Shown in pieces: positions 12,863 through 64,000 of a stretch of DNA of 64,000 nt (position 1 is its first letter; every line of letters starts with the position of its first letter). The translations under genes were made by a program, and so were the position numbers. The stretch is taken from the NCBI GenBank assembly GCA_023078555.1, contig CM041196.1, forward strand, positions 10,248,985-10,312,984, written 5' to 3'. This DNA comes from Ulva prolifera. Lineage: Eukaryota; Chlorophyta; Ulvophyceae; Ulvales; Ulvaceae. The notes under the pieces are model-generated. The model had not been told where the DNA came from, ran no database searches, and saw only the letters and a program-made list of their open reading frames with translations.

Positions 12863-16182
<3,320 letters not shown>

Positions 16183-18792: not shown

Positions 18793-19049
18793 CTCCATCT
18801 TTCTCCCTGGATGTGTGAAGGGCCCCGGCCCGGGGGGTGTATGCATGCGTGTCAGGACTGCTGGAGCAAATTACAAGAGCTCAGGTCAAAGCATGGCTGA
18901 GCCCAAAACATACTACCAAACATTGTGACGATGTAAGCCTGATGTGTAGGATCCCCCATTACACCAAGGCAGCAGCCACCTCGACATGCATTATTCCATT
19001 GATCAATATTGAACAAATTGAACCACGGCTATGTAATCATGCATGCATA

Positions 19050-20260
19050 CATACATACTGGCGCGTCCCGCGGGACGACCGGCCTGCGTGCGGCCGCACA
19101 AGCCGTCCTTCCAGCGCGCCTCGGAGGCCTGGGCATCATGTCCACGCCGCAGGAGGTCGCGGACGGAGCGTACCTCGCTGCTAGCAGCGCTGCTGCGGTG
19201 AGCCAAAAGGCGTTCGCAGGAGGCCCCGAGTGCATGCAGCCGTTCCGGGGGCCGCACGGGCAACACTTGCAGGAAACCTGGCAGGCCCTCAACGTCGCTC
19301 AGCAGCTCCATCCGGAGCTGCCCGGGCCGGCGAGCGGCGACACCATCGCCAAGGTGTTACCTGGTATGCAGCAGCGTGTCACTAAGGTGGTTGCCCTGCG
19401 CCGCCGGTCGGCTCTGCTTGCCAGCCATGACGTCGCCACGCTCGAGGGTGCATGCAACTTGGCACGGCTTTGCAGCTGTGCTTGCCGTGCAGCCACCCTT
19501 TGGTCGAGCACCCTGCCGCTCTCCCAGGCGCTGCGAATGACTGACATGGAAATCATGCTGAGCATCAGGTATCTCCTGGGCATGTCCCCAGCCCCTCCCA
19601 ATGCGGTCGGCTCGCGCTGCGAATGTGGCACATTCATACAGCCGCATGATCTCGACCACGCGATGAATTGCACACACAATGCGGGGACCTGGACTTCGCG
19701 CCACAATATCGTTGAAAAACAATGGCGCGAGATTGGGTCCCACGCGTGTGTGGCATCCACGCGCATCCCGCGCACAGCGCCGTTTGTCCGCGCGCGGCTC
19801 GCGGCCGCTCCGAGGCAGATCCATGCTGGCCCATTGGGCCCGACCCCCCCTGCTCCGCCCCAGCCCGCCTCCCATGGCCAGGTCGCGGGCCCTTCGCGTG
19901 GGGCGACCTTGCCCGCGGCGCCGATGCCTGCAACCCCGCTGCCGCCGCCAACCGCGCGCGCGGACGAGGCGCCGGCGCCTACGCCTGCTCCGGCCGCCAA
20001 CGCCGATGCTGGACACAGCGCCCAGATGGGGCGCCAAGCGCCAGACGCAGCGCGGGCTGCGGCCCTGGCGGCGGCGGCGGCGGCGCCGGGTGGTCAGGAT
20101 CCGGCGGGGCCTGGGGAGCAGGCCGCTGCCGCGCAGGCGACGGCGCTGGATCAGGTGTTCAGGGCAGTGGCCCAGGAGAAACTGGGGGACATCATGTTTA
20201 TGCCGCCGGGTGACCCTTTGTGCATAGGAGATGTGTCGGTTGTGAACCCCTGTGCTGGTT
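19050..20260 (+). mobile_element. LINE copy 1, 5' part (interrupted by the CACTA element)
   Basis: This is the C-terminal half of a LINE polyprotein. It begins in the region after the reverse transcriptase core (LPARLGGLGI, ADGAYLAA), followed by a CCHC knuckle CECGTFIQPHDLDHAMNC with RHN-I-V after it. A Pro/Ala-rich spacer comes next, then the start of a restriction-like endonuclease-type segment (IGDVSVVNPCAG). The copy is 5'-truncated: no catalytic reverse transcriptase motifs are present. The open frame runs from about 19009 into the transposon. The 3' part resumes at 38659. The CCHC followed by D-x-SVV and K..Y is the order seen in R2/CRE-like elements with a restriction-like endonuclease. 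The subfamily assignment is inference. Confidence 0.8.
20258..20260. repeat. Target-site duplication GTT, left copy
   Basis: GTT immediately precedes the left CACTA terminus and is repeated at 38659-38661. A 3-bp duplication is the rule for CACTA elements. Confidence 0.9.
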
Positions 20261-20278
20261 CACTAGGAGAATGGTGAC
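20261..20278 (+). repeat. Left terminal inverted repeat of CACTA element
   Basis: CACTAGGAGAATGGTGAC, an exact inverted match to 38641-38658. Confidence 0.97.
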
Positions 20279-20600
20279 GTGGTGGTGAGGAACGTGCGAG
20301 GACGGCTCGCGGAAGAGGGGCGGAAGCGTGGCGGAGCCCCCGGAACGGCGAAAGGACTGTTAGCGGAGCGTCCGGAAGGCAGTCCGGAGCGTGGGAGGAA
20401 GTTCCGCGAGCGTTCCGACCGGGTGGTTTCCAAGTGCACTCCACGTGGGTGTTCCGCCGGAACGTTTCCGGAGCGGTGCCGGAACGCGCAAAGGATCCGC
20501 GATGCATCCAGAGGACTGTTTGAGGAAGAATGCTTAAAATTTCGGAATGATTCCGGATCCGGGGACGTTCCGGCAGAGCCTTGCGGAATCCGTCCGGAAG
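20279..20600. repeat. Left subterminal repeat region
   Basis: Recurrent TTCCG, CGGAA and GGAACG words occur in both orientations through this stretch. The right end (38460-38640) is similar. In CACTA elements such subterminal words bind the TNPA-type protein. That role is inferred here from position. Confidence 0.6.
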
Positions 20601-20807
20601 CCCGGACGAACATGCTGGTTCATGAGGGGTTATTACTTGGTTGCTCACTGTTCGACCGTGCCGGAGGCAGAGTACGTGGTGAGGTCAGCGAGGCCTCCTT
20701 TACATGTGTGCCACGTGCATGTTGCCGTTGACACGGATGCGACTCGGTATCGGTGTTTGTTCTCTCTTATTCACTCTATTTTAACAGGTGCACCAGGTTT
20801 TCAACGT

Positions 20808-20945
20808 GAATCGCGAATGGTGCGCACATGACATACGGTCTTGTTGACCGTATTGACCGTATTGTTGACGCATACCATCATGAACGCGTACGCAAAACTG
20901 CCTATCCCGCAAGACCGTATGTCATGTGCGCACCATTCGCGATTC
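20808..20945. repeat. Inverted repeat with perfect 36-bp arms
   Basis: Arms 20808-20843 and 20910-20945 are exact complements over 36 bp, with a 66-nt loop. The loop itself carries short TTGACCGTA repeats. The repeat lies between the left subterminal region and the first gene of the CACTA element. It could be a small-RNA precursor, a nested MITE without obvious target duplication, or a terminator-like structure. Confidence 0.85.
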
Positions 20946-21044
20946 TCGTTCAACCGCGAAACTATATTCATGATGTATACAAGCAGCATGTACACCGTGG
21001 TTCCGAAACAAGACAGCTTTGTTGTTGTGTTCACACGAGTTTGT

Positions 21045-21222
21045 AGGCAGGCGGTCATGCATAGGCCATCATAAACAATCATTGACATTGCTTACATTGA
21101 GATCTCGTCACCTTGTGACCTCTGCATGTCCATACGGAACGACATTACTACTAGAACAGGCGGTCATGCCACGTCTTACATGTCATATACCCCACTCATA
21201 CACTCGGTCACGACCGCCTGTG
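21045..21222. repeat. Small repeats with GGCGGTCATG core
   Basis: The word AGGCGGTCATG occurs near 21050 and 21160, and a related inverted form (CACGACCGCCTGT) occurs near 21208. They lie just downstream of the stop of the minus-strand gene and may be additional subterminal protein-binding words. Confidence 0.4.
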
Positions 21223-21296
21223 TTCAGGGACAGTGTCTTCTGAGCCCCCGTTGGTGTACAACTAATAGACAGACATCTTCAACCTGAGTCTTCACC

Positions 21297-24200
21297 TCAC
21301 GACAGCATCTCAATCAAGGTCTGCATAAGCTCCCGGACCTCCTCCTGCACGCTCCGCCGCTGTGTCATACCGCTGACAGTACACACATATTGAGATATAC
21401 TTGTTCAGATAAACTGTGGCATACCTTGTCCTGTTTGATTGATTCATCGAGCTTCTTTGCCTGCGGACCCTTCCGGTTGCGGGCGGGGCCGGATGCCAGC
21501 TCCGCTAATTCGTCCTCAGACTTGGCTATTCTTTCATTGAGAACCTCGAGGGCATGCCTGAGAGACTCTTCTTCGGCCGCTGCCTGGCGCTTCTCCAGAG
21601 CTGGATGAGTATCTTTTTTCTTTGCCTTCTGCAGAACAACGATGCTGTCACACGATCTCTCGCACCTAAGGAAACAACAAAACTCACATGACCAGCATAT
21701 ATACGATTTTGATGCATCAGCAAGCGCACTGCATCATCATGAACGCGCGTACATGAGCCTGGGCTTATGAAAGCACAGTTTATGTCAACCTTGTGGAGGT
21801 ATGTACAGATCAAGGCGTACCGGTTCATCCTCCTGTATGTCCATCTCTGTTGGGCCGCTCCGCCGAGTCTTGGGCACTGGCATCTCGTCGTCCGCAACTT
21901 CCAGGCCGGCTGCCACTAGGTGGGGTAGGACGTCGAGTTCTACGTCATCGCTGTCAGGTACATCCTTCCGTGTTCGGTTGAGAACCGGAGGTGAAGGGGG
22001 GAGATCGGCGAGTGACCTGTCGCTGCCTCTCTTGCGGGCGCGTCTCCCGCCGTTGCTGGTCTCGGCCTGCGTAGCAAAGCATGTCGCGATTCTGTATCGA
22101 CGCGACTTCCACGGCTGACATCGCTTTAAAATCCCTGCGTCATGTACAGCGTGGCCGCGAAGACGTACCCGTCCACCCTGTTGGCTCCTCCGGTGAGTGG
22201 GACGCAACGGAGATTCCGCTGTCTGTTCCCTTTTCATCTCACCCAGGATGAAATCCCTAAAGTAGTGGTTGTCAGCCACGTACACTCCGTCTTCCCGTGC
22301 CCACTGCGCGGCCGACTTCATCGTGCCATCGCCGTAAGCAGTCCTGGTTCCGATTCTGGACAGCTGCATGTATAGGTGATGTGTCAGTGGCGTGCGCTTG
22401 TCACGTGCACTAGGATGCTGTTGCCTAATGTCTTCGTTGTGCAGTAGCAAAACGTCCGCGACAGATGGGTCAGGCGCGGTGCACGAGAATGGTTGGTGGC
22501 TCACCAACCATTCGGGCATGCCTGCATCTCACTATCCACGGGCCCCGAATGGTTGGTGGGCCACCAGCCATTCGGGCATGCATGCATGTCACTATTAACG
22601 CGCCTCGGAATGGTTGGTGGCCCACCAACCATTCGGGCATTCAGGCATCTCACTATCCACGGGCCCCGAATGGTTGGTGGGCCACCAGCCATTCGGGCAT
22701 GCATGCATGTCACTATTAACGCGCCTCGGAATGGTTGGTGGGCCACCAACCATTCGGGCATTCAGGCATCTCACTATCCACGGGCCCCGAATGGTTGGTG
22801 GGCCACCAGCCATTCGGGCATGCATGCATGTTACTATTAACGCGCCTCGGAATGGTTGGTGGCCCACCAACCATTCGGGCATTCAGGCATCTCACTATCC
22901 ACGGGCCCCGAATGGTTGGTGGGCCACCAACCATTCGGGCATGCATGCATGTCACTATTAACGCGCCTCGGAATGGTTGGTGGGCCACCAACCATTCGGG
23001 CATTCAGGCATCTCACTATCCACGGGCCCCGAATGGTTGGTGGGCCACCAGCAATTCGGGCATGCATGCATGTCACTATTAACGCGCCTCGGAATGGTTG
23101 GTGGGCCACCAACCATTCGGGCATTCAGGCATCTCACTATCCACGGGCCCCGAATGGTTGGTGGGCCACCGGCCATTCGGGCATGCATGCATGTCACTAT
23201 TAACGCGCCTCGGAATGGTTGGTGGCCCACCAACCATTCGGGCATGCATGCATGTCACTATTAACGCGCCTCGGAATGGTTGGTGGGCCACCATCCATTC
23301 GGGCATGCATGCCCGTCACTATTAACGCGCCTCGGAATGGTTGGTGGGCCACCATCCATTCCGAGCAGTCCTGCATGTACGTCACGATCCGGGAGCAAGA
23401 CGCACGCGCCTGTTCTTCCTCCACGTCCTTCACTGCCGCGGTCACTCTCGGGTCCTTGCGGTCTCGCTCGCTCCGCCGCAACTTCTTGTTGTGATCAAAT
23501 GCTCGTCGAGGGAAACCGCTGCAAGAACAGGATGATCACGACTGTGCGTGTGTGCTTACACGAACACAGGATGACCACCGATTACGGCCGAACATGTGCA
23601 TCCTGACGCAGTCGTGATGCACAGTAGTGATGTCGCATGCGCAAGAGGAAACGCACTGGTACTTCACGTCCCTCAACATGGCTTTCTGGCTCCGAAATGC
23701 GGCTGCTATGTTCCTCGCAGCCGTGTACGCCGTCCCCTCTTTGCCCGCCTGCATAAGTCAATCAAGTCTGGTCGTCATCGATGTACTGTGGTGGCCATTG
23801 CCTCCCGCGGAGCACAGTCCGTGGCGACCACTTCCAGCATGAAAACAACAACTGGGTCATTCACACTACACGCTCAGCCATACAACACAACACGAAACCA
23901 TCCCAATCCACCGTAATCTTCACACTACCGTATGGCAACCGCCCCAGCATGTCAGGCCGGCGATACAGAGTCAAGTTGTTAGCAGGCATAGCACAAGCGT
24001 ACCCCCGCTGCTGCCGCTGCGATCGCACAAACGTGCTGATGCATCAGCATACTTCCTTCATACATACGCAGCTTTGGGTCGCCGGTGTCCTTCAGCAGCG
24101 CCTGCATCAGCGGAGACGCCTTGTCCTCGTCCCTCATCTGGCCCAGGATCGCCGACAGCTTGTCAGTCCACATCAGAACTCCCGATTGTAGTACCTCCCA

Positions 24201-24575
24201 CACGTGATCGCTGTCGCACGTCGCAGCGGTAGCAGTGGAGCCCGCTGTGCGTGCCGACGCCCCTGGAGCGGAGCCTCGATTCTTCCGCAGGTTGATGGGC
24301 TGGACCAACACCGGGGGCTCGATGCCGCCAGCGATCTTCCCCTTCTGGAAGTAGAATGAAATACATCTCTTCAGGAACTCCACGCTGTCGAGGTCCAAGG
24401 TGGCGTCCTCGTCGTTGGCCGACGACAGTGTCATGCCGTCCGACCCCCCTCCCCTTCGCCAGATACTCCTCGCTAGCACGTCCAGCATCCCATTCGCAGA
24501 GTCGTCATCCGCAGTGTCTTTATCGACGACGATCGCGGCCTCTCGCTTGAACTGAAATTGAAGGCTGTCCGGCAT
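21297..24575 (-). CDS. CACTA-encoded coiled-coil / basic protein (possible TNPA-like partner)
   Basis: This is a multi-exon minus-strand gene. Supported exons in gene order are 24068-24575 (start MPDSLQFQF), 23657-23748, 23386-23518, 22148-22363, 21821-22066, 21425-21628 and 21297-21359 (stop TGA). From the second exon on, all junction phases agree (donors GTGCGTTTC, GTGACG, GTACAT, GTACGC, GTATGC). At least one small exon between 24067 and 23749 is probably missing, because the phase there does not match. The product has an acidic N-terminal part (ILGQMRDEDKASPLMQALLK), a Lys/Arg-rich middle (NKKLRRSERDRKDPR), and a C-terminal helix-rich part (EKRQAAAEEESLRHALEVLN, then VQEEVRELMQTLIEML) suggesting a coiled coil. 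I recognise no family. Position, divergent transcription from the transposase gene and basic/coiled-coil make-up suggest the second DNA-binding protein typical of En/Spm elements. The intron 22364-23385 contains a palindrome array. Confidence 0.55.
22487..23362. repeat. Palindrome array 1 (121-bp dimeric units)
   Basis: About seven 121-bp higher-order units, each made of two 60-61-bp halves. Each half begins with the core GGAATGGTTGGTGG-C/G-CCACCAACCATTC (arms 13-14 bp) and differs in its spacer: CATTCAGGCATCTCACTATC in one, CATGCATGCATGTCACTATT in the other. The array lies inside intron 22364-23385 of the minus-strand gene. Open frames across it are repeat artefacts. Confidence 0.95.
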
Positions 24576-24906
24576 CGCGACGCGTACACAACAGAGAGGA
24601 CCGGAACTAAACAAGCACTTAGCAGCCAATGCGTATACAGTAACTCCAACTTCTTTGGTACTTGGCAATGCCTATCCGTCGGTGCTGATATCCAAGATTT
24701 TGAAAACACAGTGCCGTGTTGGTGCCCTGCCATTGGCCACAGGGACACTCCCTCGTTACATCCTCACGCATGATATCCCCCGCCACTCAACTCGTCCCCG
24801 AGTACGCTTGCACTACGCCTGATCCTCGTTCATACCACGCCGCTCGCTTGCCGCGACGTCTTTCCATTCATCCAGGCAGAGTTTATCGACGTTTAATGTG
24901 CCGAGA
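24576..24906. promoter_or_regulatory. Divergent promoter region of the CACTA element
   Basis: This is the 331-bp gap between the start codons of the minus-strand coiled-coil gene and the plus-strand transposase gene. It must hold both 5' regions. I see no clear TATA box and no palindrome core here. Confidence 0.55.
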
Positions 24907-27900
24907 ATGGCTCCGCGTAGGCGTAAGCGTGCTGTCGAGATCGACGACGACCTTGCAGAAGTTGGCATTCTGCGCCTTGATCCTCCGCTTCGTGATGGGG
25001 ACCTCAAGTTACTATACCAGTGCACTAAATGTAGTAAACCGTTTGACAGGCTTCTAACCGCCCAGAAGCACCCCCGCGCCTGCCCCGCGGGGCGCGCTCA
25101 AACTCGTGACGATGGCACTGGCGATGACACAGGCAGCCAGCAAGTGGCGGGCAACCAGCCTCCGGGTGATGTCGACCTCGGTCGAGTCGACGAGGTCCTC
25201 ATCGAGGTGTGCCTGTCCCTGAACACCTCGTCTGATCTCCGAGTGCTGACTATCTGGTGATCGTGATTGGTGTCATGTGGCCAGGTCCCTGAGGGCTCCG
25301 ACGTATCCGAAGAAGACTACGGAGACGACGATGCGGACAGCCTTTACGACGACGCCAGCAGTGTCCTCTCCAGCCTGTCGGGAGATGACTGGGACATAGA
25401 CTCCACCGAGGTTTGTCCTCTCGGTGTCTCCCGACGCAGCCTGATTTTCCGAGTTGCTCTTATGCTGGGCACCCACCCCCTGCTCCCTCTCGGTGTCAAT
25501 GGCTGGTGACTATGTGCAGAGCGACTCCCTCGACGGCCGCGAGGGTCCACAGGTCGCAGCCGAGGCTGCAGCCGTGAAGGGGACTGCCGCATGGTGGCAT
25601 CAGAGACGGATGGATCCGGTCTCCGACACCTGCCGTCTCACAGTGTTGACTGTATCAATGTGGATCGCCAGCCTGAAAAGCATGTTCCGGATGAGTGATG
25701 TTGTGGTGGACATGTGGTGTCGTTTTGTGCATTATCTACTCTTACCAGATGGGAATATGTTCCCCCCATCCTTCCACCTGGTCAAGGCTGTCCTGGCGGT
25801 ACCAGATGTCTCCTCGGTTACCCGGCACGTGTGCCCACAGTGCTGGACTCTCTTCCCATGTATAAAGCCGTGTGATCATACCCACCACTTGGACGACGTC
25901 TGCAACACCCCAGGGTGCACCCAGAAGCGTTTCGAGGTGGACCTGGCAGGCAAGGGTGCACCTTGCCGGAGTGTCTTTTACTTTGGGGAGGCCTCATCGC
26001 TGAAAGACCTGATTCTGCAACCCGGCGTCCTTGCCGCGGTTCGTGCTCACCGAGTGCACGCCCTACAGGATCCCGCCGGTTTCTGGAAGTCCCCTGCCGG
26101 ACGTGCCCTGAACGCCAAGTGCGGGGGGATTTTCGACAAGGCTGACCCGGACGAGATTGCACTGCTTTTCAGCTTGGGTGCGCTCCCCTTGAGTTCGACC
26201 TATCCTGCGTCATCATCACTCAGTAGCCAGGCCATTGATATCGTCTGGGTCCAGTACACTAGTGGGGCCTGCAGTAGCCTCTCCCGGACACTGAGCCCGC
26301 TTGCAGGGGGTGACGGCGCCCAACTGTACGTGAACAAGCAACACGGGACCACAATCTGGGGCATCCGCCTGCTGGACCTCCCCCCTCATCTGTCTCATTG
26401 CAATGATGCCTGGATCCCCCTGGGGGTGGTCGAGGGTCCAACTGAACCCACGAACATGGACAGCATCCTTGCACAGGTACTCGAGTTCTTCAAGAAGCAT
26501 GACCCAGGTACGTGTCAGTCTGGCGAGTGTGTTCCCAACGCACACTCATGTCCGGCCAGTGCGTGATGTGGCAGTGTTTGACTATGAACCCCCTACGATG
26601 CAGCCAGGAAGGGGGAGGACGGGATCGAGGCTTTCAAAGTCGAGATGCCCGACGGAACAGTTCTGCGCATCTGGCCTGTGCTCTGCTGTGTGGAGGGCGA
26701 CATTCCATGGATGCAGAAGTTGACCAACAGCATCGGGCACGGCGGCAAGAGGGCGTGCTACCGTTGCGCCCAGAACGGCGTCTGGGTGTTCGCAGCCAAC
26801 ACAGTACGGTATGTTGGCTCCAGTTGCCGTGCTGTCGCCATGCTGCCTCTGACCACCACTGCTTACCCCTGGCATCCCGGCCAAGCCCGCCTCCGCCACC
26901 CCCTCCGACATGGCTTGGGGGCTCCCTACTATCCTTATGAGACATCCGCCGTGCAGCTGGCTTGGGTTCCACGGCCCGGTCATCCAGCCTCAGCCGGTTC
27001 ACGCTGCGGGGCCTGATCAAGGAAAGCCCCTCACAGCGGCGCAAGAGGCCGACATTGCCGCGGGGGCGGTGCCAAGGATGGTGCCCGGCAGTCTGGAACC
27101 AGACCCCGGGCCCCCCCCCCCCCGCACGAAGTGGTCCGAGGTTACCACCATCGACCCGGCGACCCTGGCAAAGGACTGCCGGCTGAAGTACTCTGCTTCA
27201 GAGATGTGCGCTCGCGGCCACACAGCAGACCAGTTGACTGATCAGGTGCGGGTACCCTTGTATATGAATCTTTCCTCTGTCATGCGGCCCATGTGCCTGC
27301 ATGCATGGTCGATGTTCTGCCGATCCGCCCACCAGGAGGCTTGCATGCAGACCACCAGCCCCACGTTGGACCGCTACACTGACAAAGACACCTTGCTGGA
27401 ACGGCAGAAACTTGCGAAGAAGGAGCACATCCGCCTGGGGGTTAAAGGGTCTTCCCTGTTCAGCACCCTCTCATACTTCAAGTGCGCACCCCTACCACAG
27501 GACAGCTGCAGTACCGTCATCTGGACCCATGCATACACCGTGAAGGAGGTTGTTTCTGCAGTCCATGCCACTTCTTCCGCTACGGTGTCGCGCACGTGTT
27601 CCTCCTTGGCCTCCTCATGGACTTCTGGAATCAGTGGCTGCCGAGTTCGAAGAGGCGTAAGAAAGCCCGCCCTGCAGGCCCCAGGCGGTTGTATCAGCTG
27701 CCTAAAGAGGTGGTGGCCCAGATTGCTGCCCGCGCGTCCCACATCATGCACACCTATCTGTTCAAGAAAGTGTACACCGACATCACCAAGTGCGGTTCCG
27801 CGGCCCCCCACAATACGGCAGCGGACACAGGTTACTGCTGGCAGCTGTCCCATGCACACGTGTCGTGAACCTTACAGCTTGTGGAGGCCAGCAGGTGGCT

Positions 27901-29278
27901 CGCTTCAAGTTTGCACTGCTGCAGGCACCGGTCTCGGTGGCTCATGGAGGACTGGCTTGCGTTCACAGAGACGTTCTCCTTGTACTTGCTGCACGACCTC
28001 CATTGGGAGCCCGAGCAGGAGGATGTTCGGCTGGTGTTCGAGGAGATGTGGACGCACCTCCGAGCAGGCACCCTGTATTTCCTGCGGTACGAGGAGCTCC
28101 AGCATACCGCACCCCGGATCAAAGCAGCTCAAGACGCGTTGATGAAGTACGGCGCGATGGCAGAAGATCTCTTTGGGGGGGAGGTGATCTGCACCTTCAA
28201 GCTTCATATTGCAGCCTGGCACCTACCGGACCAGGTGAGATGCTGTGGGCCTGCGTTCTTCTGTCTAGAGTTCTGGATCGAACGCATGGTGCAGCTACTT
28301 AAACGGCTGATCAAATATCGTTCCACCAAATCACCAGAGAAAGTGTATGTCAACGATGAGCTGCTGCGGCGCACATGTATGAGGCTGCTTCACAGCAGCG
28401 AGACGGCAGAGGCGGCCATGCGCACGTTGCAAGAGGCCGTGGCCTCAGAGAAACGCCGTCGGTCAACACGGCGCAAGGTCCGGGCCGCTGTGCACATGGG
28501 CGACACCGACTCTGATGACGGTGATGACGACAGGGTGTTTGGGGCGGGTAAGGACCTCGACGCCGAAGAGAAGAAAGAAGTGATGCCGCTGGGGTACACT
28601 GGGGTCGGTGAGTTGTCCGGGCTGCCTTACCTGCTCTACCACCAGGACGCCCTGCAGGAGGCAGGGTGGCCGACCCAGCGGGTCCTGGGTGCGGGCTACG
28701 GCAGGAGAGAGGCCATCATGCGGGCGCTTGGGCTGCCGGTTGCTGGGGAGGTTGTTGCTGAGCGGCAGCTCTGTGAGGTGCACCTGCGAAAATTCCTGCG
28801 AGGGCGGGCTTTGGTAGGGGATGTCCTGACCTGTGCGCAGCACACTGGTCAGGGTAAGAAAGACAATCGATGGTGCCTGTTGAAGTACCATGTAGTAGAA
28901 GAGGGTACGAATAGGGGCCAGGATCGGTACTATGTCGGCGACTTGCAATACATAGTCCGGGCCAGGCTCAGCACGGCAGACGGGTCGCATGTCTGTAGAA
29001 CCTGCACTGTAGAGGCCAGCGTACTGTACCTCGGTGTGACAGACGTGTACGAGTGTAGTACACCCTATACACCCGGATGCAGGGAGGCGGATGAGGAGCT
29101 GAACCGCGCTCCCGAGTTTTACAGGGTTGAGGGCGTGCATCACCGTTCCTCGGCTTACACTGGCCGGTATGTAGTGAACATTGATTCTATGGCCGGGCAG
29201 CTGGTTCCGGTGAAACGGACGGCAGGAGGTGTTCAGTACTGGCAGACAGCGAACAAGGCCTCCGGGCGTACTGTGTAA
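24907..29278 (+). CDS. CACTA transposase, Tnp2 family with DUF4218
   Basis: I reconstruct eight exons: 24907-25206, 25285-25410, 25520-26177, 26307-26507, 26604-26808, 26957-27481, 27562-27789 and 27925-29278. They sum to 3597 nt (1198 residues), every junction phase matches, and donors are mostly GTGYG type. The N-terminus is basic (MAPRRRKRAVE) with a zinc-finger-like C39-x2-C42-x12-H55-x3-C59 and an acidic stretch. The Tnp2-like core follows, with VCPQCWTLFPC, a second CNTPGC, GGDGAQLY and the DLPPHLS..WIPLGVVEGP segment that is typical of algal and fungal Tnp2 proteins. Then come SIGHGGKRACYRC and CHFFRYGVAHVFLLGLLMDF. DUF4218 follows at about 750-860 (CTFKLHIAAWHLPDQVRCCG, FWIERMVQLLKR). 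The C-terminus has an acidic patch and a Cys-containing tail. Role: binds and cuts transposon ends in the nucleus. An optional extra in-frame intron (27246-27336 or 27351) is possible. Confidence 0.88.
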
Positions 29279-29313
29279 GTAGGTCATCCCCCATATGGCG
29301 GCCACCATGCGGA

Positions 29314-29617
29314 ATGCATGTGCCCAGTCAGCGCCACCGTGGAATGGATGGTGGCCCACCAACCATTCCGCATGCGAGCAATGCATGAGCCCAGTCAGCG
29401 CCACCGTGGAATGGTTGGTGGCCCACCAACCATTCCGCATGCGAGCAATGCATGAGCCCAGTCAGCGCCATCCGTGGAATGGTTGGTGGCCCACCAACCA
29501 TTCCGCATGCGAGCAATGCATGAGCCCAGGACAGCTGAAGTGTCTACAGGATGCCCGCGTGCACAGTGTCGATGCTGTGACGTCCTGTGGAGCTCGCCAA
29601 GGCCAGCCTGGTTTCTA
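29314..29617. repeat. Palindrome array 2 plus flank (left arm of internal inverted repeat)
   Basis: Three 67-68-bp units plus a partial one (29314-29523), each with the core arm GGAATGGTTGGTGG and the spacer GCATGCGAGCAATGCATGAG, are followed by a unique flank to 29617. The whole is an inverted copy of 37292-38180, including the roughly 90-bp flank (29527-29617 pairs with 37292-37379). It begins 35 bp after the transposase stop and ends upstream of the next plus-strand gene. Confidence 0.93.
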
Positions 29618-29800
29618 ATGGCGCGGTAATTCCCTTTATATGAGGCATCGTCGGCCCCGCGTGTCTTCACTGCATCGATCTCGACTCTGACCTGTGTGTA
29701 CGTACGCGGTATTGTCCCTCGGCTACTGGCGCCGGCAGTACCAAAGCGCGTGCTGCGTCCCGTTTAATACACGCGAACTGTTAAATTATTGTTACATAAG

Positions 29801-30361
29801 ATGTCGGCCGTAGGCGGCGAGGGTGCTGTTGCCTGCCGTGAAGGGGATGTCCAGCCTGACACCAGCGTCACAGTAACCATCCCGCACAGCCGTCTGCGGG
29901 CGGCGCTATTGCCCGCTATTGGGACATTAATATCTAGGTCAGGTCATTTCACCAATGTAGGGCGGGTCGGGCCCAAAGGGACGCCCGACTCCCACGCTGC
30001 TTGCGATGCTTGGTTTGACGTCGGGCTACAGGTCGTAGACCGGGTCGAAACATCCGTAGATCAGAGCGTTGCATACGTGAAGTATGCTGTAGTCATCGCC
30101 TGCCTGCAACTCGGGGGGTGGCTGCGCGAGCAGGAGAGGATGTTGGTGCCCGCATGGGGGGGACTATCCGCACCCCCGCCTGGATGTGACGCCCCTTTGG
30201 CCTGGGTCAAGCTGTATGGTAGGAGGAAGGTGTGCCCATCTCAAGTGATTTTGATGCCGTCGGCTCTGCTACAGGACCCCTTGGAGGGTACTCCTAGCGC
30301 CCTTGCCCAGCCGCCACGCCGGGCCATTGTCGGGGCCTTCGACCTTATGTGGTTACCATGA
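29801..30361 (+). CDS. CACTA-encoded protein of unknown function
   Basis: An open frame of 186 codons starts with ATG at 29801 (MSAVGGEGAV). It reads as an ordinary globular protein (DAWFDVGLQVVDRVE, VAYVKYAVVIACLQLGGWLR). Its stop TGA overlaps the next ATG at 30358 (ATGA), so it is either a separate gene on one transcript or a 5' exon whose splice sites I could not fix. No family recognised. It lies directly downstream of the inverted palindrome array that also precedes the Ulp1 gene. Confidence 0.5.
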   Translation: MSAVGGEGAVACREGDVQPDTSVTVTIPHSRLRAALLPAIGTLISRSGHFTNVGRVGPKGTPDSHAACDAWFDVGLQVVDRVETSVDQSVAYVKYAVVIACLQLGGWLREQERMLVPAWGGLSAPPPGCDAPLAWVKLYGRRKVCPSQVILMPSALLQDPLEGTPSALAQPPRRAIVGAFDLMWLP

Positions 30362-33300
30362 GCATGCAGGAACTGGTCAGTGGACATGTGCGCCCACGTG
30401 CCCCACCGGCGCCCGCACAGGCTTCGGATTCGGGTCGCGCCGGGCCTGCCGGCTCCGAGACAGTGCAGCAGAGCGATAGGGCGGTGATTGGGGTTCCGTC
30501 CTTGCCGAAAACCAAGAAGCGGAAGGAGGCGGATCCTGCCCCGAAGGCAGACACCGGTGCGTTTCAGTATTGGGTTTATGCCAAGTCATGCATTGTCGCC
30601 CGACATGTGCAGCCGTATGGTTACAAATGCAGGTTTTGTGGAGTATGCGGTGACCGGCCCCCGGTCCATTCTGTGGGCCTGGTGTTTTTTTTTCAGCCGC
30701 ATCCACCCTGACTCCCAGCCCATGATGGTGCCGTCCAACAAGCGGCAGAAAACCGGGGCGGAGACGGACAGTCAACAGCCCATAGGCAACACCAGGGTGG
30801 CTGGGCCCACCTGTAATGTGCCTGTCGGCATGAATCCGCTGTGCACCCTGTTCTTGACCGAGAAGACACTGGCCCGCACTTATTGCGATGCTGACGATCT
30901 GACCCCAAGCCAGCAGCTGGCGCAGAGGGTGTACCTGCAACCCTCCTGCCGCGCCGTGCTTGCACAGCAAGCTGGCGCCCCCTCTACCACGGTGACACAG
31001 CTCTCCGCCGCCGGTGATCTCCTGTACCAGATCCACATCTACTTCCCTCTTCTGATTGAAGTTTATGTGTGCCCCCCCCCCCCCCCCCCCCCCCTCCCCC
31101 CCCCCCCCCCTGGAACCCCACTCGTGTCAGACATGCATGGTCACCCAGATTCTCGAGGTCCGGTAGTACTCGCTGGTAGCCTGCTGGTGTTGTCCCTAGT
31201 TCTGACTAACAATTGCTCCGTTAGACCGGTCGTGGACTGGGGATAGCTTTTGGCTTACATCCCCTCTGTCTCCAGGACATGGACACCCTCGGGGATTTTG
31301 TGGAAGCTGTCGCAAATCTTGCGCCTTTCGTAGTGCAGTACGCTGCGACGCATCCTCTGATCAAACCGGCGCCGGTGCGGCCTCTATGGACCTGTATCCT
31401 GCTGTAGTCACGCTGATGATAAGTTTACACATTTTTCCATCGACTGGCGCTTTTTTAACAGATCTGCCTTGTAGGAGACCGATGAGTCTGTGATATTGTG
31501 TCCGTGGTTCGCATCTGTCGGGGCGTTTCACCTAGCCATCTTCAACGCTGCTGTTTCGTACATGCCGGTGCGCAAGGGCCGGTCCACCTGCGACTCCGGG
31601 CTGCAGCTGTGCATCCGATCGTACCAGGTTATGGTGTACGGTTCGGCGCACTCAGACCCGGATTTCAGTGATCGGCTGCCAAACTGGCAACTTGAAGCTC
31701 ATCGTTTGGACAGCCGCTGCTTCGAGGACCCTCTTTATGCGGCCATATTCGTCACCGCCGTGAACACCTCGTGTGCGCACCTGGGGTTTCCCATCCAAGC
31801 CCATGTACTGGCGATGACGTATCCGAATCATGGTGTGTTCGGCTCGCCTCCCCGAGTAACTGACCGGGTACACGGCTCGATATGCAGGGCTGACCGCCTG
31901 GGGCGTCGGGGCTCCCGTGAAAGACTTCACCAGCCTCCTCATTCCCTTGTGCCCGCCAGATACACTCTGGCATTGGGGGCTGAGGGCGTGGCGGTACCTT
32001 TGCACCGTCTCTGCAACCCCGGCTGCCGAAGAGCAGGGTGGTGTGAAGAAGAAAGCCAAGTGGTTGACCCTGGTACCCTCGTCGTTCCAGGACATTGACG
32101 ACTGGGGGTACAACGGGGCCACTGCTCTGGCTACAAGAGCCATCGCCATGGGCCTACAGAATGAAGTCTGCTCCAGGTGTGCGGATGTGCCAACACGCTG
32201 TTTGGGGAAGTTCCCATCATACTACAGTTGTATCGGATCGGTATTTTGTAGCTTTTAGGACAGTCGGCTGTAACGCATGCTCTGATTATCCAGGATCGAG
32301 TTCAGCCACATCCCTAACTGCGTCCTGCAGCAGCTCCCCCCCGGTTCACAGCGTGTACCGCAGGTGTCTATTGCCGAGGTGGGTGGCAGTAGTCGCACGC
32401 GTACAGATGACAGTCCATGGGGAGTAGGGGCTGGCGACAAGCGGGACAGAGGTGATCTCGATGTCGCGTCCGGTAAGGGAAGCAAGCCCCGTCATGGCGC
32501 CACAGGTGTGGTGATGGGGCAGTCAGCGGCTGGTGCTGGGGGTGCTGGTGGGGCTGACCCCGCCACCGCGGCCGGGGGTGCCGCTGCCGGCGCTGCTGAT
32601 CAGACCAAGCCCTCTCATGGCGCCACGGGTGACGGGGGGGAACAGTCAGCGGCTGGTGCTGGGGGTGCTGGTGGGGCTGACCCCGCCACCGCGGCCGGGT
32701 GTGCCGCTGCCGGCGCTGCTGATCAGGCCAAGCCCTCTCATGGCGACACGGGTGACGGGGGGAAACAGTCAGCGGCTGGTGCTGGGGGTGCTGGTGGGGC
32801 TGACCCCGCCACCGCGGCCGGGGGTGCCGCTGCCGGCGCTGCTGATCAGACCAAGCCCTCTCATGGCGCCACGGGTGACGGGGGGGAACAGTCAGCGGCT
32901 GGTGCTGGGGGTGCTGGTGGGGCTGACCCCGCCACCGCGGCCGGGGGTGCCGCTGCCGGCGCTGCTGATCAGGCCAAGCCCTCTCATGGCGACACGGGTG
33001 ACGGGGGGGAACAGTCAGCGGCTGGTGCTGGGGGTGCTGGTGGGGCTGACCCCGCCACCGCGGCCGGGGGTGCCGCTGCCGGCGCTGCTGATCAAGCCAA
33101 GCCCTCTCATGGCGCCACGGGTGACGGGGGGGAACAGTCAGCGGCTGGTGCTGGGGGTGCTGGTGGGGCTGACCCCGCCACCGCGGCCGGGGGTGCCGCT
33201 GCCGGCGCTGCTGATCAGGCCAAGCCCTCTCATGGCGCCACGGGTGACGGGGCGGAACAGTCAGCGGCTGGTGCTGGGGGTGCTGGTGGGGCTGACCCCG

Positions 33301-34174
33301 CCACCGCGGCCGGGGGTGCCGCTGCAGGCGCTGCTGATCAGGCCAAGCCCTCTCATGGCGCCACGGGTGACGGGAGTGGGCCATCGCTGTCCTCTTCCGA
33401 GGGGGGGGGGGATGGTGGGAGTGTGGAATGGGGGCTCGCCTCGAGCCTGTATGGACGCAACGCCGCTAGGTGGCCTGATGGGGGAACCCTCCTGGATACT
33501 CTTGCCCGAGTTTCTGGGATTGCCACCCCCCCCCAAGACCCCTCCACCGGGGTCGCAGACGGGGGGGGGGGGGGGGGGGGGGGGGGGGCCTGCAAGCGGT
33601 GGTTTGCCCTCCAACTCACATGACCCTGCTCTCGGCCCGCAATATAACCCTGCATCCGGGCAGGTGCTTCCTAGCTTCGACCCCTCCACCGCTCTGGTTC
33701 CGTCGGTCGGGGTTTCTGTTAACACGCAGGATAACAGTCGGCAAATTGTCATAACCATAGACGACGAGCTGCCTCCGTCCGGGAACAACACCTGCAGCAG
33801 GGAGACTCTCCTGCATTGTGCCGCCGCCACCTGGCGCATCATGACGCGTTGCAACCCGCGGCTCCAGTCGCCCGGTGATGACCAGAGGATCATGCTGATG
33901 ATGGTCATCTCTGGGCACGGCCTGAACCCTGATGCTGCCGCTATGGACGAGGTTATCCTACTAAGTCAGGAGGTGTGTCGCATGCTGGCTCCGGGGCCTG
34001 AATCACTGTGCTTTGAATGTCCTCGTCGATGTGCATGGGATTACGGAGTGAGACAATCAGGGGCAGTGTAACAACTTGGCGCCTGTGCAGACTCCCCAGG
34101 ACGACGTGGGGGACTTACTGGAGACGCTAGACCTACTGGCCGCACCTGGAGATCATGCTGTCGACGATTCATAG
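30358..34174 (+). CDS. CACTA-encoded protein with seven 41-residue Gly/Ala repeats
   Basis: The model joins these exons in phase: 30358-30642 (basic KTKKRKEA, YGYKCRFCG), 30719-31066 (SNKRQKTGAETD, then a helical part ending FPLLIEVY), 31276-31374 (DMDTLGDFVEAVANLAP) and one beginning 31475 (ETDESVILCPWFASVGAFHL). Further exons run through 31917-32258. The repeat exon starts near 32364 and continues to 33972. The last exon is 34091-34174 (DDVGDLLETLDLLAAPGD, stop). The repeat exon contains a 123-bp unit repeated 7 times. The Gly/Ala frame (QSAAGAGGAGGADPATAAGG) ends soon after a 28-G run at 33561-33588, while the frame that looks coding beyond it (RQIVITIDDELPPSG) is shifted by one. Either the G count is wrong or slippage joins them. 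Function unknown. Nuclear localisation is suggested by two basic clusters. Exact splicing between 31475 and 32400 is uncertain. Confidence 0.5.
31072..31110. repeat. Poly-C tract at start of an intron
   Basis: 38 C with one T, beginning 5 nt after the GT of the donor TAT|GTGTGC of the plus-strand gene. Confidence 0.95.
32520..33380. repeat. 123-bp coding tandem repeat, 7 units
   Basis: Units begin at 32520, 32643, 32766, 32889, 33012, 33135 and 33258. They are nearly identical (a few A/C and G/A variants). The length is a multiple of three, so two plus frames and one minus frame stay open across it. Only the Gly/Ala frame connects to plausible flanking exons. Confidence 0.95.
33561..33588. 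repeat. Poly-G tract (28 nt) inside a coding region
   Basis: This homopolymer lies in the repeat-containing gene, and the likely reading frame changes across it. Confidence 0.95.
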
Positions 34175-34639
34175 ATTCCATGGGGTTGGGGTGGCCTGTT
34201 GTGCAGCGTGTACGACAGTGGGGGGATACTTGGTGCCATTCAGCAGTGCTGGAGCCACCACGCCGCATGGTTCTAGGCAAGTACGGTATTGTGTAGTGTC
34301 GGATCTGGTTACGGATTCATCAAGTCCCCTGTACCCCCTGTCCGCTTAGCATTACACACTACAGCTTATGCACTCGAGCTTCCACACGATATGTTACAAC
34401 CGCTGCCGCCCTGACAAGAACCTACGCCTGACCGCAGCCATGCTTTTATAAAAACGCCTGTATACCTGCTATGTCTTTCGATTGAGCGGCGGCAGTGGCG
34501 TCTTGAACAGAGCTTTGTACTGAGCCCCGAACACTCCATCCGGCTTCTGAACACTGCGGAGTATGTCGGGCCACAGTGTCGTCTGGAATAGGTGCCTGCA
34601 ACATTGAGTGATTCAGCTACGGAAGGAGGTCGCACTTGC
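34175..34639. other. Convergent 3' intergenic region
   Basis: This lies between the stop of the plus-strand repeat-protein gene and the stop of the minus-strand protease gene. No gene seen; it should hold both polyadenylation regions. Confidence 0.5.
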
Positions 34640-37290
34640 CTACCTGGTGAAATGCAAAGTTTGCCAGGGTCTATACCTCACTTCTTCTTCTGACTGGTCT
34701 GGGCAGATAGCATCATCCAGATTGATGTCCCATCTGGCGTCGGTCAGGATTCTCCGTGCTTCCGCCACCCCAACGTCACCCGCGTCGTCGCCTGCACGCC
34801 CTCTCTTCTCCCATTCTTGAATCACGGATCGTGCCATGAGGATCCGATACAGGACCACCTCCTCTGCCTTCAGCGCCTTCAGTCTACCGACGACCAACCG
34901 GTCAACGCTGCTGCCATCTCTGAGCTGAAGTGGCGTCTCGTCCTTGCGTTTGTTGTCCACCTGTTTGATTACGTCACACACAGTCTCTGCATACAGGCAC
35001 GTGAAAACGCCGCAGTCGTACGTGTTCCGCTGCTGAGGGACGTCTTTCACCTGTACACACACCTTGTGTATGGGAGCTGAGCCTACGTCTGCCCAGGTGT
35101 TGTATGTCAAACCGGGATGCAACCCCTCCTACAGTGTCAGGCGGCGACTGCCGAGTAGGACGCACCATGCGTAGGTTTAGTGTTTGCTTCGGCATCAATG
35201 CTGGCACATTCCCCTGTTTGGCGCCCCGCTTTGGCAGAACCCTGGGCCGACCACCCGACTGAACCTTGGGCAAGGGGGGGAGGGCGGGGGCGCCGTCAAG
35301 GCACTGACACAGAGCCACGCTCATCACCTCATTGATGGCGGTCGGGGCGGTTCCCGAGGCGCTCGGCAGGGAGTCATACCAGCTCATTGTAGGGCTCTTT
35401 GCTGACAGCAAGAGTCCTGCGAATCGGCATGTGATGTATCAGCCCCCCGTTGCGTGGTGGATGGTGGGGGTAACACCAAGGACATAATGCAGTCAGGGTC
35501 ATTGAAGCCGCACCTGGCGAGTACACCACTGCAAGTGCCCAGTGCTTCCCGGTGGGGACCGGGATGAGGATACACCTCGCTGCTAGTGCTTTCGCCTTCT
35601 TCAGCCACGCGATGAGGTGTTGGAGCATCGCGCGGGCCTCTGCGTCGCTGCTGGGGTCCCGAGTGGCCAGGACCTTCAGGTGGTCGGACGGGACGGCAAT
35701 GACCCCCCCTCCGGCCAATACTGCAGCCTTGACTACCCCATACTGGACTGGAGTGCTGCTGAACCACTCCGCCACCCAGAAGTCCCTGAAGTGCAACACA
35801 GAGACGGTGACGGAGACCGTCGCGTCTCCAAATTTGCCGAGCTGCACCCCTACACCCTTGATAAATGAGGATCCTGAACAACCCTCAATGTCGTCCGGTC
35901 CGAACACCTGGCCACGGAGGCGTACCCCTGTGGGGTCGTCGTGCGAAGGTTCGGCTGCCAGCCGCACCAGCGGGCGCGTCTGAGCCCTCTCCAGTGCTTG
36001 GACTAGAGGCTGCCTCCGAACATCGCTACCCGGAGGCAGCAAGCACGCTGGAGACAGCGTCCCTGGCTGGACTGCCGAGGGGCCTGCAGCGGCCTCCCCA
36101 CCGTCTGGGGTGTCCACCTCCATGGGCGTGGCACCTCCGGCATCCTGGCGCGACGGCCCCAGAGGTGGCTCTGGGGGGACCACTGCAGCCGCAGCTTGTG
36201 CTGCGCCGTGGGCCCGCCGGCGGGGGACGGCGGGCTGCATCAGTGGATGCCCGATTGCAGCCCCCCCCGCCACTGTGGGGCCGGCGCTGCCCCCTCGTTC
36301 CGCCCCCACCGCTCCCTCTTTCCGTCCAGCAGCGCCTGGATCACGTGTCCGGGTCTCACGTGACCCGGGAATACCGCCTGTGCGAACTCGCAAGGTGGAC
36401 TCGTGGACAACACTTTGCCCTGAGGATTCCGCCTGCTGGATCGGCGCCCTGACGGGGGCCGGCGATTGGGCTGCGCCGACCACCCCTCCACGTGAGTCCG
36501 ATGGCTGCCCTCCCATGCTCGCCAGATGGGCCGGCACATCTGGGGCCGAGAGAGGGTGCTCAATGACTGGCTCTCTCGGCCACATCGGGGTGGTCTGCGG
36601 CTCGCTATCCTGCAGCCTTCCCCACCATGCTATAATCGGGGCCCCTCCGACTGTCATCTGGATTCGCAGGAGCATCCCCCCCATGTCCTCGTCGAACCCC
36701 TGGGTCGTGGCTATGGACCGGTACAGCTGAATCTCCGGTGGCCCGCATGGAGCTCCGGTCTGAACCGCCCGCTTAAAAGCGCCCTCACGAAGCACTACCC
36801 ATAACATTTTGAGGTGGATGGTCGCAGCGCTGTACTCAGTCGTCGCCTCCATGTACTCCGTCGTCAGCATTCGTCGCATTGCCTCGAAGGCTGCCATCAT
36901 CCGGGGCCCCGCTGCTTCGTCGCCGGCTAATATGCTATCTATTGTGGCTACATCGCAAGCTGTTAACAGCCACCCGCATTCCATCAAGTCGACTGGAAAA
37001 CCGAGTGGTCGGTACTGGACCAGTCGCGGTATACTCTGCCCTGGTAACCAATTGCCCCGCGCTGCTACCTTTACGAATTCGAAAAATGTGGGCTCGTATT
37101 GTTTTTTTCCCTCAAGGACGGCGAGGTAATGCGACACGTTCGCCGGACTGATCCTGGTAATTATCCTCATTGCGACACTGCAGAGTAGGCACGACCAGAT
37201 TCGCGTCAAATGATCCACGGTGATACTAGGCGCATGGTGTACTGTCAAGGAGGCATATGGATACAGCGCGTGTGAGAAGTGCGTGTCCAT
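34640..37290 (-). CDS. Ulp1-like SUMO/ubiquitin-like protease (C48) carried by the CACTA element
   Basis: I model three exons: 35514-37290, 35166-35416 and 34640-35128, which together give 838 codons plus stop. Phases match with donors GTGCGGCTT and GTGCGTCCT. The second intron would be only 37 nt, so that junction is less certain. The first half (to about residue 230) is a helical unknown domain. The middle is Pro/Ala-rich and probably disordered. The protease domain carries His583 in TGKHWALAVV, Asp607 in SWYDSLPS, Gln708/709 in DVPQQRNTYDCGVF and Cys715, the full C48 set. Ulp1 proteins cleave SUMO from targets. CACTA and related transposons in plants and algae repeatedly carry such genes, and their role in transposition is unknown. 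The start ATG at 37290 abuts the inner edge of the inverted palindrome array, so that array is likely its promoter region. Confidence 0.82.
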
Positions 37291-37291
37291 G

Positions 37292-38180
37292 AGAAACCAG
37301 GCTGGCCTTGGCGAGCTCCACAGGACGTCACAGCATCGACACTGGGCATCCTGTAGACACTTCAGCCGTGTTGGGCACATGCATTGCTCGCATGCGGAAT
37401 GGATGGTGGGCCACCATCCATTCCACGATGGCGCTGACTGGGCTCATGCATTGCTCGCATGCGGAATGGTTGGTGGCCCACCAACCATTCCACGATGGCG
37501 CTGACTGGGCTCATGCATTGCTCGCATGCGGAATGGTTGGTGGGCCACCATCCATTCCACGATGGCGCTGACTGGGCTCATGCATTGCTCGCATGCGGAA
37601 TGGTTGGTGGGCCACCATCCATTCCACGATGGCGCTGACTGGGCTCATGCATTGCTCGCATGCGGAATGGTTGGTGGGCCACCATCCATTCCACGATGGC
37701 GCTGACTGGGATCATGCATTGCTCGCATGCGGAATGGTTGGTGGCCCACCAACCATTCCACGATGGCGCTGACTGGGCTCATGCATTGCTCGCATGCGGA
37801 ATGGTTGGTGGGCCACCATCCATTCCACGATGGCGCTGACTGGGCTCATGCATTGCTCGCATGCGGAATGGTTGGTGGGCCACCATCCATTCCACGATGG
37901 CGCTGACTGGGCTCATGCATTGCTCGCATGCGGAATGGTTGGTGGGCCACCATCCATTCCACGATGGCGCTGACTGGGCTCATGCATTGCTCGCATGCGG
38001 AATGGTTGGTGGGCCACCATCCATTCCACGATGGCGCTGACTGGGATCATGCATTGCTCGCATGCGGAATGGTTGGTGGGCCACCATCCATTCCACGATG
38101 GCGCTGACTGGGCTCATGCATTGCTCGCATGCGGAATGGTTGGTGGGCCACCATCCATTCCACGATGGCGCTGACTGGGC
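37292..38180. repeat. Palindrome array 3 plus flank (right arm of internal inverted repeat)
   Basis: Twelve 67-bp units run from 37394 to about 38180. Each has the core arm GGAATGGTTGGTGG (the second arm is often CCATCCATTCC) and the spacer CGATGGCGCTGACTGGGCTC. The 37292-37379 flank and the array are the inverted counterpart of 29314-29617. The array lies immediately upstream of the Ulp1 start codon. Confidence 0.95.
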
Positions 38181-38240
38181 TCACGCTTATCGATGAGGGC
38201 TCGTTTATCGATAAGGGCTCACGCTTATAGATCGGCGTGT
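38179..38240. repeat. Short GGGCTC...TTATCGAT repeats
   Basis: Three imperfect copies of GGGCTCACGCTTATCGAT-like words (about 18 bp) lie between the palindrome array and the right end of the transposon. Confidence 0.7.
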
Positions 38241-38459
38241 CCGCGTCGCTTGTGCGCATCGCATCTACAGCTTAAAGTACACAATTCATTCCAAAATCCA
38301 CTGCTCGAGGTGCACTGCGTTATCCATGAACATTCCCACGCTTAGACTGCCAGTCCAACCTGTGCGCGACAGGCTCAGCATGCCATGGCTTCCCACTGGT
38401 TCTCACCTGCGCGGGCGGCCTGTTCCTCGCCGTGGAAGAGCCCGCAGTCCTGTCAGCAG

Positions 38460-38640
38460 GAAAGCATAGGACATTCCGCGGCCACCAAGGAAGCCATCGG
38501 ACATTCCGCGGCCACCGAGGAAGCCATAGGACATTCCGCCACCATCGTTCCTTGTGAAGCATACGCACGCGGGCGGAAGGTCAAGAGCCTCGTAGGAACG
38601 TTCCTCTGTCAGCGGAACGCCTTCGGTTCCGCCCCGGAAT
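38460..38640. repeat. Right subterminal repeat region
   Basis: About 2.7 copies of a 30-bp unit (GGACATTCCGCGGCCACC core) at 38467-38543, then GGAACG/TTCCG words up to the terminal repeat. This is comparable in composition to the left subterminal region. Confidence 0.7.
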
Positions 38641-38658
38641 GTCACCATTCTCCTAGTG
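38641..38658 (-). repeat. Right terminal inverted repeat of CACTA element
   Basis: GTCACCATTCTCCTAGTG, the exact complement of the left terminus at 20261-20278. It is followed by the GTT target duplication (38659-38661). Confidence 0.97.
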
Positions 38659-38661
38659 GTT

Positions 38662-39090
38662 CCTATTGCGGCCGTGCGGCCCGCGAGGACGGGGGTGCTG
38701 CGGAGACGCGGGACGTGCAGAAACGCACTGCTTATCGTTTGTACGACCCTGATGCGTATAGTTGTGTGCCGTTGTCGCATGAGACGCATGGTCGATTGGG
38801 ACGGCCTGCCATGAATCACTTGAATCGGCTGGCGGAGGTTGCGTCTCGGTGTGGCGAGGTGAACCGTGCTTTGTTTGTGACGAATGCTCTGCGCCGGTTG
38901 AGTGTGGCGTTGTGCAAGGGGAATGCTCTTGTGCTCCGTGCGGAACTTCAATCTTTGGCTGGCATCACCGGCCGAGCTGTGGTACGTGCTCGTGCCCGGC
39001 CTAGTGCCATGACTGCGTGAGTGGATAAGCGTGTGTATTCCTGGCAACGGCTCGCTTCCCGGCCTCTGTCCTTTGTAACTACATACTGGC
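38662..39090 (+). mobile_element. LINE copy 1, 3' part
   Basis: This continues the frame broken at 20260. After removing the CACTA element and one GTT, CAG-SYCGRAARED follows directly. Then come RDVQKRTAYRLYDPDAY, LSHETHGRLGRPAM, VNRALFVTNALRRLSVALC and LQSLAGITGRAVVRAR to the stop at 39020. The 3' untranslated part ends CCTTTGTAACTACATACTGG. No poly-A tail is present, as in some restriction-endonuclease-type LINEs. Confidence 0.85.
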
Positions 39091-63494: not shown

Positions 63495-64000
63495 CTGTAG
63501 CACAGCACGCGGGTGAAGGTTGGTCAAGTAAACCAACTTAAACTGGTGTTTCATTGATGTGAGATTGTGCACGTACCGCGCGTTGCCGCGAGTTGAGTTG
63601 CTGCAGTGGCACGCAAGTCGTGGCACGGGACATGCGGAGCGGGGGGAGGAGCTTCGGCAAAGGTGCTGGTTGTGAGACACAGGGAGAAGGCTAGCCCTGT
63701 GTGGGTGATTGTTGGGCCGGACCGGATTGAGAGTGGCAAAGACTGTGTCAGTATGCAGATGCCGGCCACACGGCCTCGGCGGTGATGGAGGCAGTGGAGC
63801 AGCCGAGAGCAGTGGTTTGGTCTCGGGGGGGGGGGGGGGGCATTCAAACCGGACTGTTGGCCCGGGGGGGGGGGGGGGGGGGGGGGGTCCACATGGCAAC
63901 TTGCTGCACTAGTTACGTTGGAGTGTGGCTACAAGATGAGCCCAGCGTCAGACAGATAGCGCGCGGTATATAGTATACGTGCGCAGCTGAAGCGAACTTG
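63495..64000. other. Intron sequence of the queuine tRNA-ribosyltransferase gene
   Basis: This is upstream intron sequence without a recognised exon. Two poly-G runs (63827-63840 and 63865-63887) are poly-C in the sense of the gene. Confidence 0.5.

Follow-up and report, generated by a model that had tools for sequence, protein, structure and literature searches.

The window analysed here, a 64,000-nucleotide stretch of Ulva prolifera DNA (C1:10248985-10312984 of an 88.9-Mb assembly, C1 being contig CM041196.1), contains its own copy, termed E0, of what is very probably an intact and recently transposed CACTA (EnSpm) element belonging to a high-copy family with module exchange. In this family the right part of about 8 kb, which carries the genes C and D, occurs in two forms, alpha and beta, that are about 58-69% identical and differ in orientation. 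E0 spans positions 20261-38658 (18,398 bp) and has perfect 18-bp inverted ends with GTT flanking both sides. The terminal inverted repeat CACTAGGAGAATGGTGAC is located at 20261..20278 on the forward strand and at 38641..38658 on the reverse strand, and the two copies of the target duplication at 20258..20260 and 38659..38661. When up to three mismatches were allowed, the window contained two matches to CACTAGGAGAATGGTGAC, both of them E0 termini, compared to a chance expectation of 0.01. The first-pass annotation had proposed exact ends formed by 18-bp repeats beginning with CACTA and bordered by the GTT duplication, which was confirmed by the matches in the window and the genome. Directly inside the left terminus lies a region rich in TTCCG/CGGAA (20279..20660, defined by motif density), and the first 400 bp of E0 contain 15 of these motifs versus 2.8 per kb in the interior. 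The last 250 bp contain seven TTCCG motifs, and the tandem-repeat search together with the motif count identified 30-bp tandem repeats with this motif at 38458..38539.

E0 interrupts an open frame on the forward strand (19003..20260) that is resumed, in the same frame, at 38662 beyond the element. This frame showed no match in the Pfam search; from its appearance we take it to be the end of a non-LTR retroelement. We used the joined flanks as a query of 199 bases with a single GTT and E0 removed, and scored 40 of 416 candidates. The joined flanks were uninterrupted in all 40 scored host-repeat copies (39 at full length and one from base 2), and six of them matched at 100% identity with 360 bits over the full length. 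A direct reading of the frames showed that the host frame continues over the junction once the flanks are joined. Since the joined flanks are uninterrupted elsewhere and the host frame reads on, the insertion of E0 was exact. Empty sites with one GTT, as suggested earlier for this element, thus exist in the genome as paralogous copies of the host repeat. The host repeat itself is of high copy number and extends over about 19003-20277 and 38662-39491, and a 312-bp piece of it recurs at 39089-39397. Elsewhere in the window we observed a perfect (CA)157 microsatellite (15067-15380) and an open frame on the reverse strand (63135-63908) which we presume, by its resemblance, to encode a queuine tRNA-ribosyltransferase.

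Genome-wide, the exact 18-mer terminus was found at 61 + 59 places, compared with none for the reversed control, so that the other copies with the same terminus which the first-pass annotation had expected are indeed present. The pairing of termini rests on 100 of these 120 places. Among the 100 listed ends there are at least 38 adjacent +/- pairs (76 ends) with spacings of 6.0-45 kb, of which 14 fall in a class of 6-9 kb and 13 in a class of 16.5-19.5 kb. The other 24 listed ends have no adjacent +/- partner, and other neighbour arrangements below 30 kb are few (three -/+, one +/+ and two -/-). For 20 pairs both flanks were read; the target duplication comprised 3 bp in 16 pairs and 4 bp in two, and the flanks mismatched in the remaining two. 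The apparent 4-bp duplications, GGGC and CCAC, belong to two short copies (C1:1022395 and C2:3195555). The mismatched pairs E8 and E9 are two opposed copies on C6 (1007637-1026717 and 1184628-1203903) and match crosswise: with flanks given in element orientation, E8 has AGG on the left and CAT on the right, E9 CAT on the left and AGG on the right. A double crosswise match is expected by chance in about 1 in 4,000 cases, and the swapped duplications suggest, from the flanks, a recombination that inverted about 158-196 kb between the opposed copies. The alignment of E8 with E9, which are 93-99% identical per kb, revealed no clear crossover point. Furthermore, two right ends at C1:9447810 and C1:9491374 are near-identical to that of E0, share the same 12-bp flank and lie 43.56 kb apart, which we read as a tandem duplication taking in part of an element; the partner of the end at 9491374 is 9536532, 45 kb away, and a matching TGG duplication flanks this pair.

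To E0 we added ten further full-size copies (E1-E10), giving 11 long copies, and one short copy (S1). E1 and E7 are located on different contigs with different 3-bp duplications and show 26 differences over 17,649 aligned bases, plus eight gaps. A 1.6-kb junction segment of E0 recurs in two other copies with a rounded identity of 100% and in a third with 99%. The element had previously been called young, and both the near-identical junction segments and the sister copies E1 and E7 support this. E1 contains an insertion of 294 bp (about 6148-6445 of the element) that is absent from E7 and includes what we take, by the consensus, to be A- and B-box tRNA-like sequences, possibly of a SINE. S1 is 6.5 kb long; its retained ends measure about 920 and 319 bp, and of the genes a remnant of A is left.

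Comparison of diverged copies revealed the gene frames, which were then checked in each fetched copy; their boundaries are approximate. In E0 all 20 tested exon segments are open, though they had been chosen as open frames of E0. Across the ten other long copies stops occur in seven of 200 segment matches, six in E2 and one in E9, and in eight of 200, from E1, E2, E3, E4 and E8, less than 80% of the segment is covered, possibly due to frameshifts. We regard E2 as a decayed copy. For A, the core of B, C and D, dN/dS amounted to 0.22-0.34 in frame versus 1.0-1.9 in the shifted-frame control, and all four genes are under purifying selection. The open exon segments and the intact catalytic residues described below are consistent with E0 being possibly autonomous.

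Gene B (24907..29278, forward strand; modelled as seven segments with approximate boundaries) encodes a CACTA/CMC-type transposase. Its motifs are arranged in the order D (26312), D (26699), C(2)C (26756-26767), H(4)H (28205-28222) and E (28280), where the catalytic D and E are our own choice, presumed from Tnp2 patterns, and the scanned frames contain other CxxC and HxxxH matches. In DDE transposases of CACTA elements C(2)C and H(3-4)H lie between the second D and the E, as stated in the available part of PMC12730594. The D-D-C(2)C-H(4)H-E residues are intact in all 11 long copies, and the core showed a dN/dS of 0.22-0.29 over six comparisons, one of them with E2 (two stops). The Pfam profile Transposase_21 (Tnp2) gave no match in E0; searched against the genome itself, it gave two weak matches elsewhere, none of them over the cut-off and none in E0. 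DUF4218 matched E0 below threshold only (E 0.0032 and E 0.0094). Of the earlier designation as a Tnp2/DUF4218 transposase, the transposase stands by its DDE, C(2)C and H(4)H residues, whereas the two domain names lack a Pfam match above cut-off. The first exon (24904-25236) contains a C2HC finger-like motif, follows the type of the left block described below and diverges faster (76-89% amino acid identity versus 88-100% in the other tested segments), with a looser dN/dS of 0.50-0.69.

Gene D, an Ulp1/C48 cysteine protease gene on the reverse strand of the alpha module (34478..37176, approximate), carries HW, YDSL and QQRNTYDCG motifs, and its splice phases were enumerated by GT/GC-AG. The Pfam Ulp1 profile matched with E 1.4e-9 and 38.5 bits against a cut-off of 20.7, which upholds the label of Ulp1 protease given before, and a 215-aa part matched SENP1 with E 2.5e-6. 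Both the alpha (E0) and the beta form (E1) contain the motifs KHWAL, WYDSL/WFDSL, QQRN/EQRN and DCGV, whose His, Asp, Gln and Cys we assume to be catalytic on the basis of known residue functions. Between alpha and beta the dN/dS of gene D was 0.30 and that of gene C 0.34. Gene C lies on the forward strand (29801..34041 in the alpha form, approximate; modelled as a repeat tract and six conserved segments, the latter tested) and includes a coding tandem repeat of 123 bp (41 aa) at 32483..33374, found by the tandem-repeat search. Gene A (21420..24575, reverse strand, approximate) has exon segments at 24575-24003, 22420-22130 and 21640-21420, and the C-terminal part of its product is basic and possibly a coiled coil. 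Two tested segments of gene A gave a dN/dS of 0.32. A third segment showed a dN/dS of 0.46 and two stops in the copy from E1, and is therefore probably in part intron or non-coding. The Pfam search detected nothing above cut-off in genes A and C, both of which are candidates for a TnpA-like binder of subterminal repeats.

A 27-bp palindrome, GAATGGTTGGTGGSCCACCAACCATTC, has 497 exact sites in the genome versus none for the control. Fifty listed sites, all on C1, lie within paired elements except for one cluster of nine sites with a lone terminus at a distance of about 11 kb. In E0 the palindromes form three arrays. The left array (22487..23361, with a 121-bp TRF unit) contains 15 palindromes at up to four mismatches and is located between exon segments of gene A. 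The middle array comprises three 67-bp units on the forward strand (29306..29529), with an inverted-repeat arm reaching to about 29621, and forms the left joint of the module; the right 67-bp array (37372..38183, reverse strand) is inverted relative to it, its inverted-repeat arm starting at about 37287. At up to four mismatches, long copies contain 12-32 palindromes in two or three clusters. Ten long copies have three clusters, the middle one being single-copy in E5 and E8, and in E2 the same scan detected no middle cluster. Beta modules are also flanked by arrays on both sides, and in their right arrays the palindrome is imperfect. We propose that the palindromes bind a protein encoded by the element.

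Alternatively, the arrays might be passive satellites without function that grow by slippage, and the modules might recombine merely because repeats do. Repeats recombine readily, which counts in favour of this explanation, as does the great variation of array length and unit between close copies. However, the palindrome arms are common to the array types while the spacers differ: the array-type consensuses showed a mean identity of 0.94 in the palindrome and 0.31 in the spacers, the latter value being lowered in part by the inverted orientation of the middle and right arrays. Moreover, S1 still retains 15 palindromes (up to four mismatches) although it has lost most of its genes, and the other short element covered by the listed sites, C1:3873482-3879508, has eight exact ones. 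We regard passive satellites as the less likely explanation.

The palindromes could also be targets of a VANC-like anti-silencing protein encoded by the element itself, with C or A as the candidate, instead of an accessory protein of transposition. According to the available part of PMC5735166, VANC proteins carry tandem peptide motifs and target short, tandemly repeated motifs located in introns and noncoding regions. Likewise, the arrays of E0 occupy intergenic stretches and the gaps separating the exon segments of gene A, protein C contains 41-aa repeats, and Ulp1 is present in the element as it is in some VANDALs (available part of PMC13317346). On the other hand, an array is kept by the short copy too, which fits either role, and we consider an anti-silencing target doubtful. 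The binding of an element-encoded protein, as proposed above, can be taken further: A or C may recognise the arrays and thereby sustain the element's activity or assemble its two ends, the arrays may act as joints for exchange and inversion of the C-D cassette, and arrays and recognising proteins may reassort and coevolve, convergent with VANC. This extended scheme is speculative, and we think it rather improbable as a whole.

The left block, from gene A to exon 1 of gene B, is of type one in E0, E3, E5, E8 and E9 and of type two in E1, E4, E6, E7 and E10; E2 is nearer to type two. The alpha module is found in E0, E2, E3, E5 and E10 and the beta module in E1, E4, E6, E7, E8 and E9, so that all four combinations of left type and module form are present among the 11 copies. 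The left halves of E1 and E10 are 97-100% identical per 500 bp, mostly 99-100%, while their modules are 59-68% identical in 600-bp windows away from the edges. The reverse pattern was observed for E1 and E9, with 95-100% identity in the module and 84-99% on the left. The module profile leaves aside E3 and E5, whose rows are full-length in the left alignment. At the joint, E10 tracks E1 over two 67-bp array units, followed by an E0-like unit and then the alpha edge. This sequence places the switch inside the palindrome array; the right module with C and D is exchanged between lineages at the middle array.

The searches with the module edges scored 40 out of 150 candidates and 40 out of 44. Among these, alpha adjoins the left half in the orientation of E0 at 11 places including E0 (eight unbroken and three with the array split) and is inverted once, in E2. 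The beta edge is opposite to E0 at all 16 full-length places, as are two weaker beta edges on C1 and C11, and no beta module in E0 orientation was seen among the scored edge matches. The other orientation is common to the decayed E2, an alpha copy, and to all 16 strong beta modules, which favours a single event: one inversion between the inverted arrays most likely gave the E0 module its orientation. We also considered recurrent flipping of the module and rejected it, as the ratios of 11:1 for alpha and 16:0 for beta (strong matches) are explicable by one inversion. At C3:4382902-4383782 there is a beta-like module edge of 85% identity next to which no left-half match is listed; it may stem from a decayed copy or from a separate one.

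The right module could instead be a separate transposon nested in the CACTA element, with the inverted arrays as its long ends and its own movement explaining the forms and orientations. Such a transposon would account for the bounding inverted arrays with their inverted-repeat edge of about 300 bp, for the varying orientation and for the weaker edge at C3:4382902 that stands apart from any listed left half. Nevertheless, all 12 alpha and 16 beta strong edge matches have a left half, with no independent copy among them, and in six beta copies the outermost 200 bp or so of the right end are 96-99% like those of E0. In addition, the switch point is located inside the array and not at its edge, and palindromes are absent from the left joint of E2, all of which makes a nested transposon very unlikely. 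Assembly errors at repeats, which arrays reaching about 0.9 kb can provoke, are a still more improbable source of the orientations and swaps, as the module forms differ at about one third of sites over 8 kb and each occurs in many copies, E10 has matching 3-bp duplications, and contigs C1 and C2 measure 12.7 and 12.5 Mb.

For the exchange of modules between lineages of one CACTA family we suggest the following mechanism. Gene B would excise and insert the element, and the TTCCG-rich ends and palindrome arrays would serve as binding sites for B and for a TnpA-like DNA-binding protein of the element, A or C. The 6-9 kb copies may be mobilised in trans. Modules could be reassorted when arrays recombine homologously or when the template is switched from one array to another, the palindromes doubling as recombination joints, and gene D as a SUMO-type protease may modify host or element proteins. 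Cassette evolution of transposon proteins and their target motifs is hard to test, as recombinants are usually old and decayed. E1 and E10 combine near-identical left halves, a readable joint and module genes under selection, and binding and swap experiments can be designed directly from them.

Within the searched text of open-licence papers we recognised no description of the E0 family or of an exchangeable CACTA module. Among green algae, Idaten of Volvox is a CACTA-type mobile element and to that extent resembles E0. This transposon is named in the references of PMC4158355, and the available part of that paper gives a 3-bp target duplication as a trait of the CACTA superfamily. The E0 family combines CACTA termini, a 3-bp duplication, the DDE/C(2)C/H(4)H residues, subterminal motifs and derivatives that keep the ends, all of them CACTA/EnSpm traits. 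In soybean, Tgmt* was described as a CACTA/EnSpm element of 20.5 kb (available part of PMC2613891). Plant elements of this kind share with E0 the CACTA termini, the 3-bp duplication, subterminal motif repeats, large size and a transposase gene. As far as the accessible descriptions go, they contain one complex gene, whereas E0 has four genes on both strands, and E0 further differs in the missing Pfam Tnp2 match, the internal palindrome arrays and the two exchangeable right modules. Similar to E0, the grapevine Cactavine families are CACTA elements (10-25 kb) that carry an Ulp1 domain. In the available part of PMC2528002 this domain is discussed as a transduplicated cellular sequence, and rice proteins joining Tnp2 and ULP1 domains are mentioned. 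In contrast, E0 holds Ulp1 as a gene of its own within the exchangeable module, and this gene is conserved across the two diverged forms. The range of large CACTA elements with several genes, among them a conserved and separate one for Ulp1, is thereby extended to a green photosynthetic lineage. The assembly itself gave 38 matches to chlorophyll a/b-binding proteins, the best of them close to LHCII proteins, which we take to indicate the green lineage, and none to PsaA/PsaB. Arabidopsis VANDAL elements with their VANC proteins also resemble E0, as the consulted parts of PMC5735166 and PMC10398659 describe several genes, noncoding family-specific motif arrays and a protein with tandem peptide repeats. 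The tandem motif arrays of VANDALs are bound by their own anti-silencing protein (same part of PMC5735166). VANDALs are Mutator-like and E0 is a CACTA element, and the likeness lies in array architecture and gene layout. Mutator-like elements such as VANDALs generate a target duplication of about 9 bp, compared to 3 bp in the E0 family. An Ulp1 domain in CACTA elements and bound motif arrays are each known elsewhere; what is new in the E0 family is their combination.
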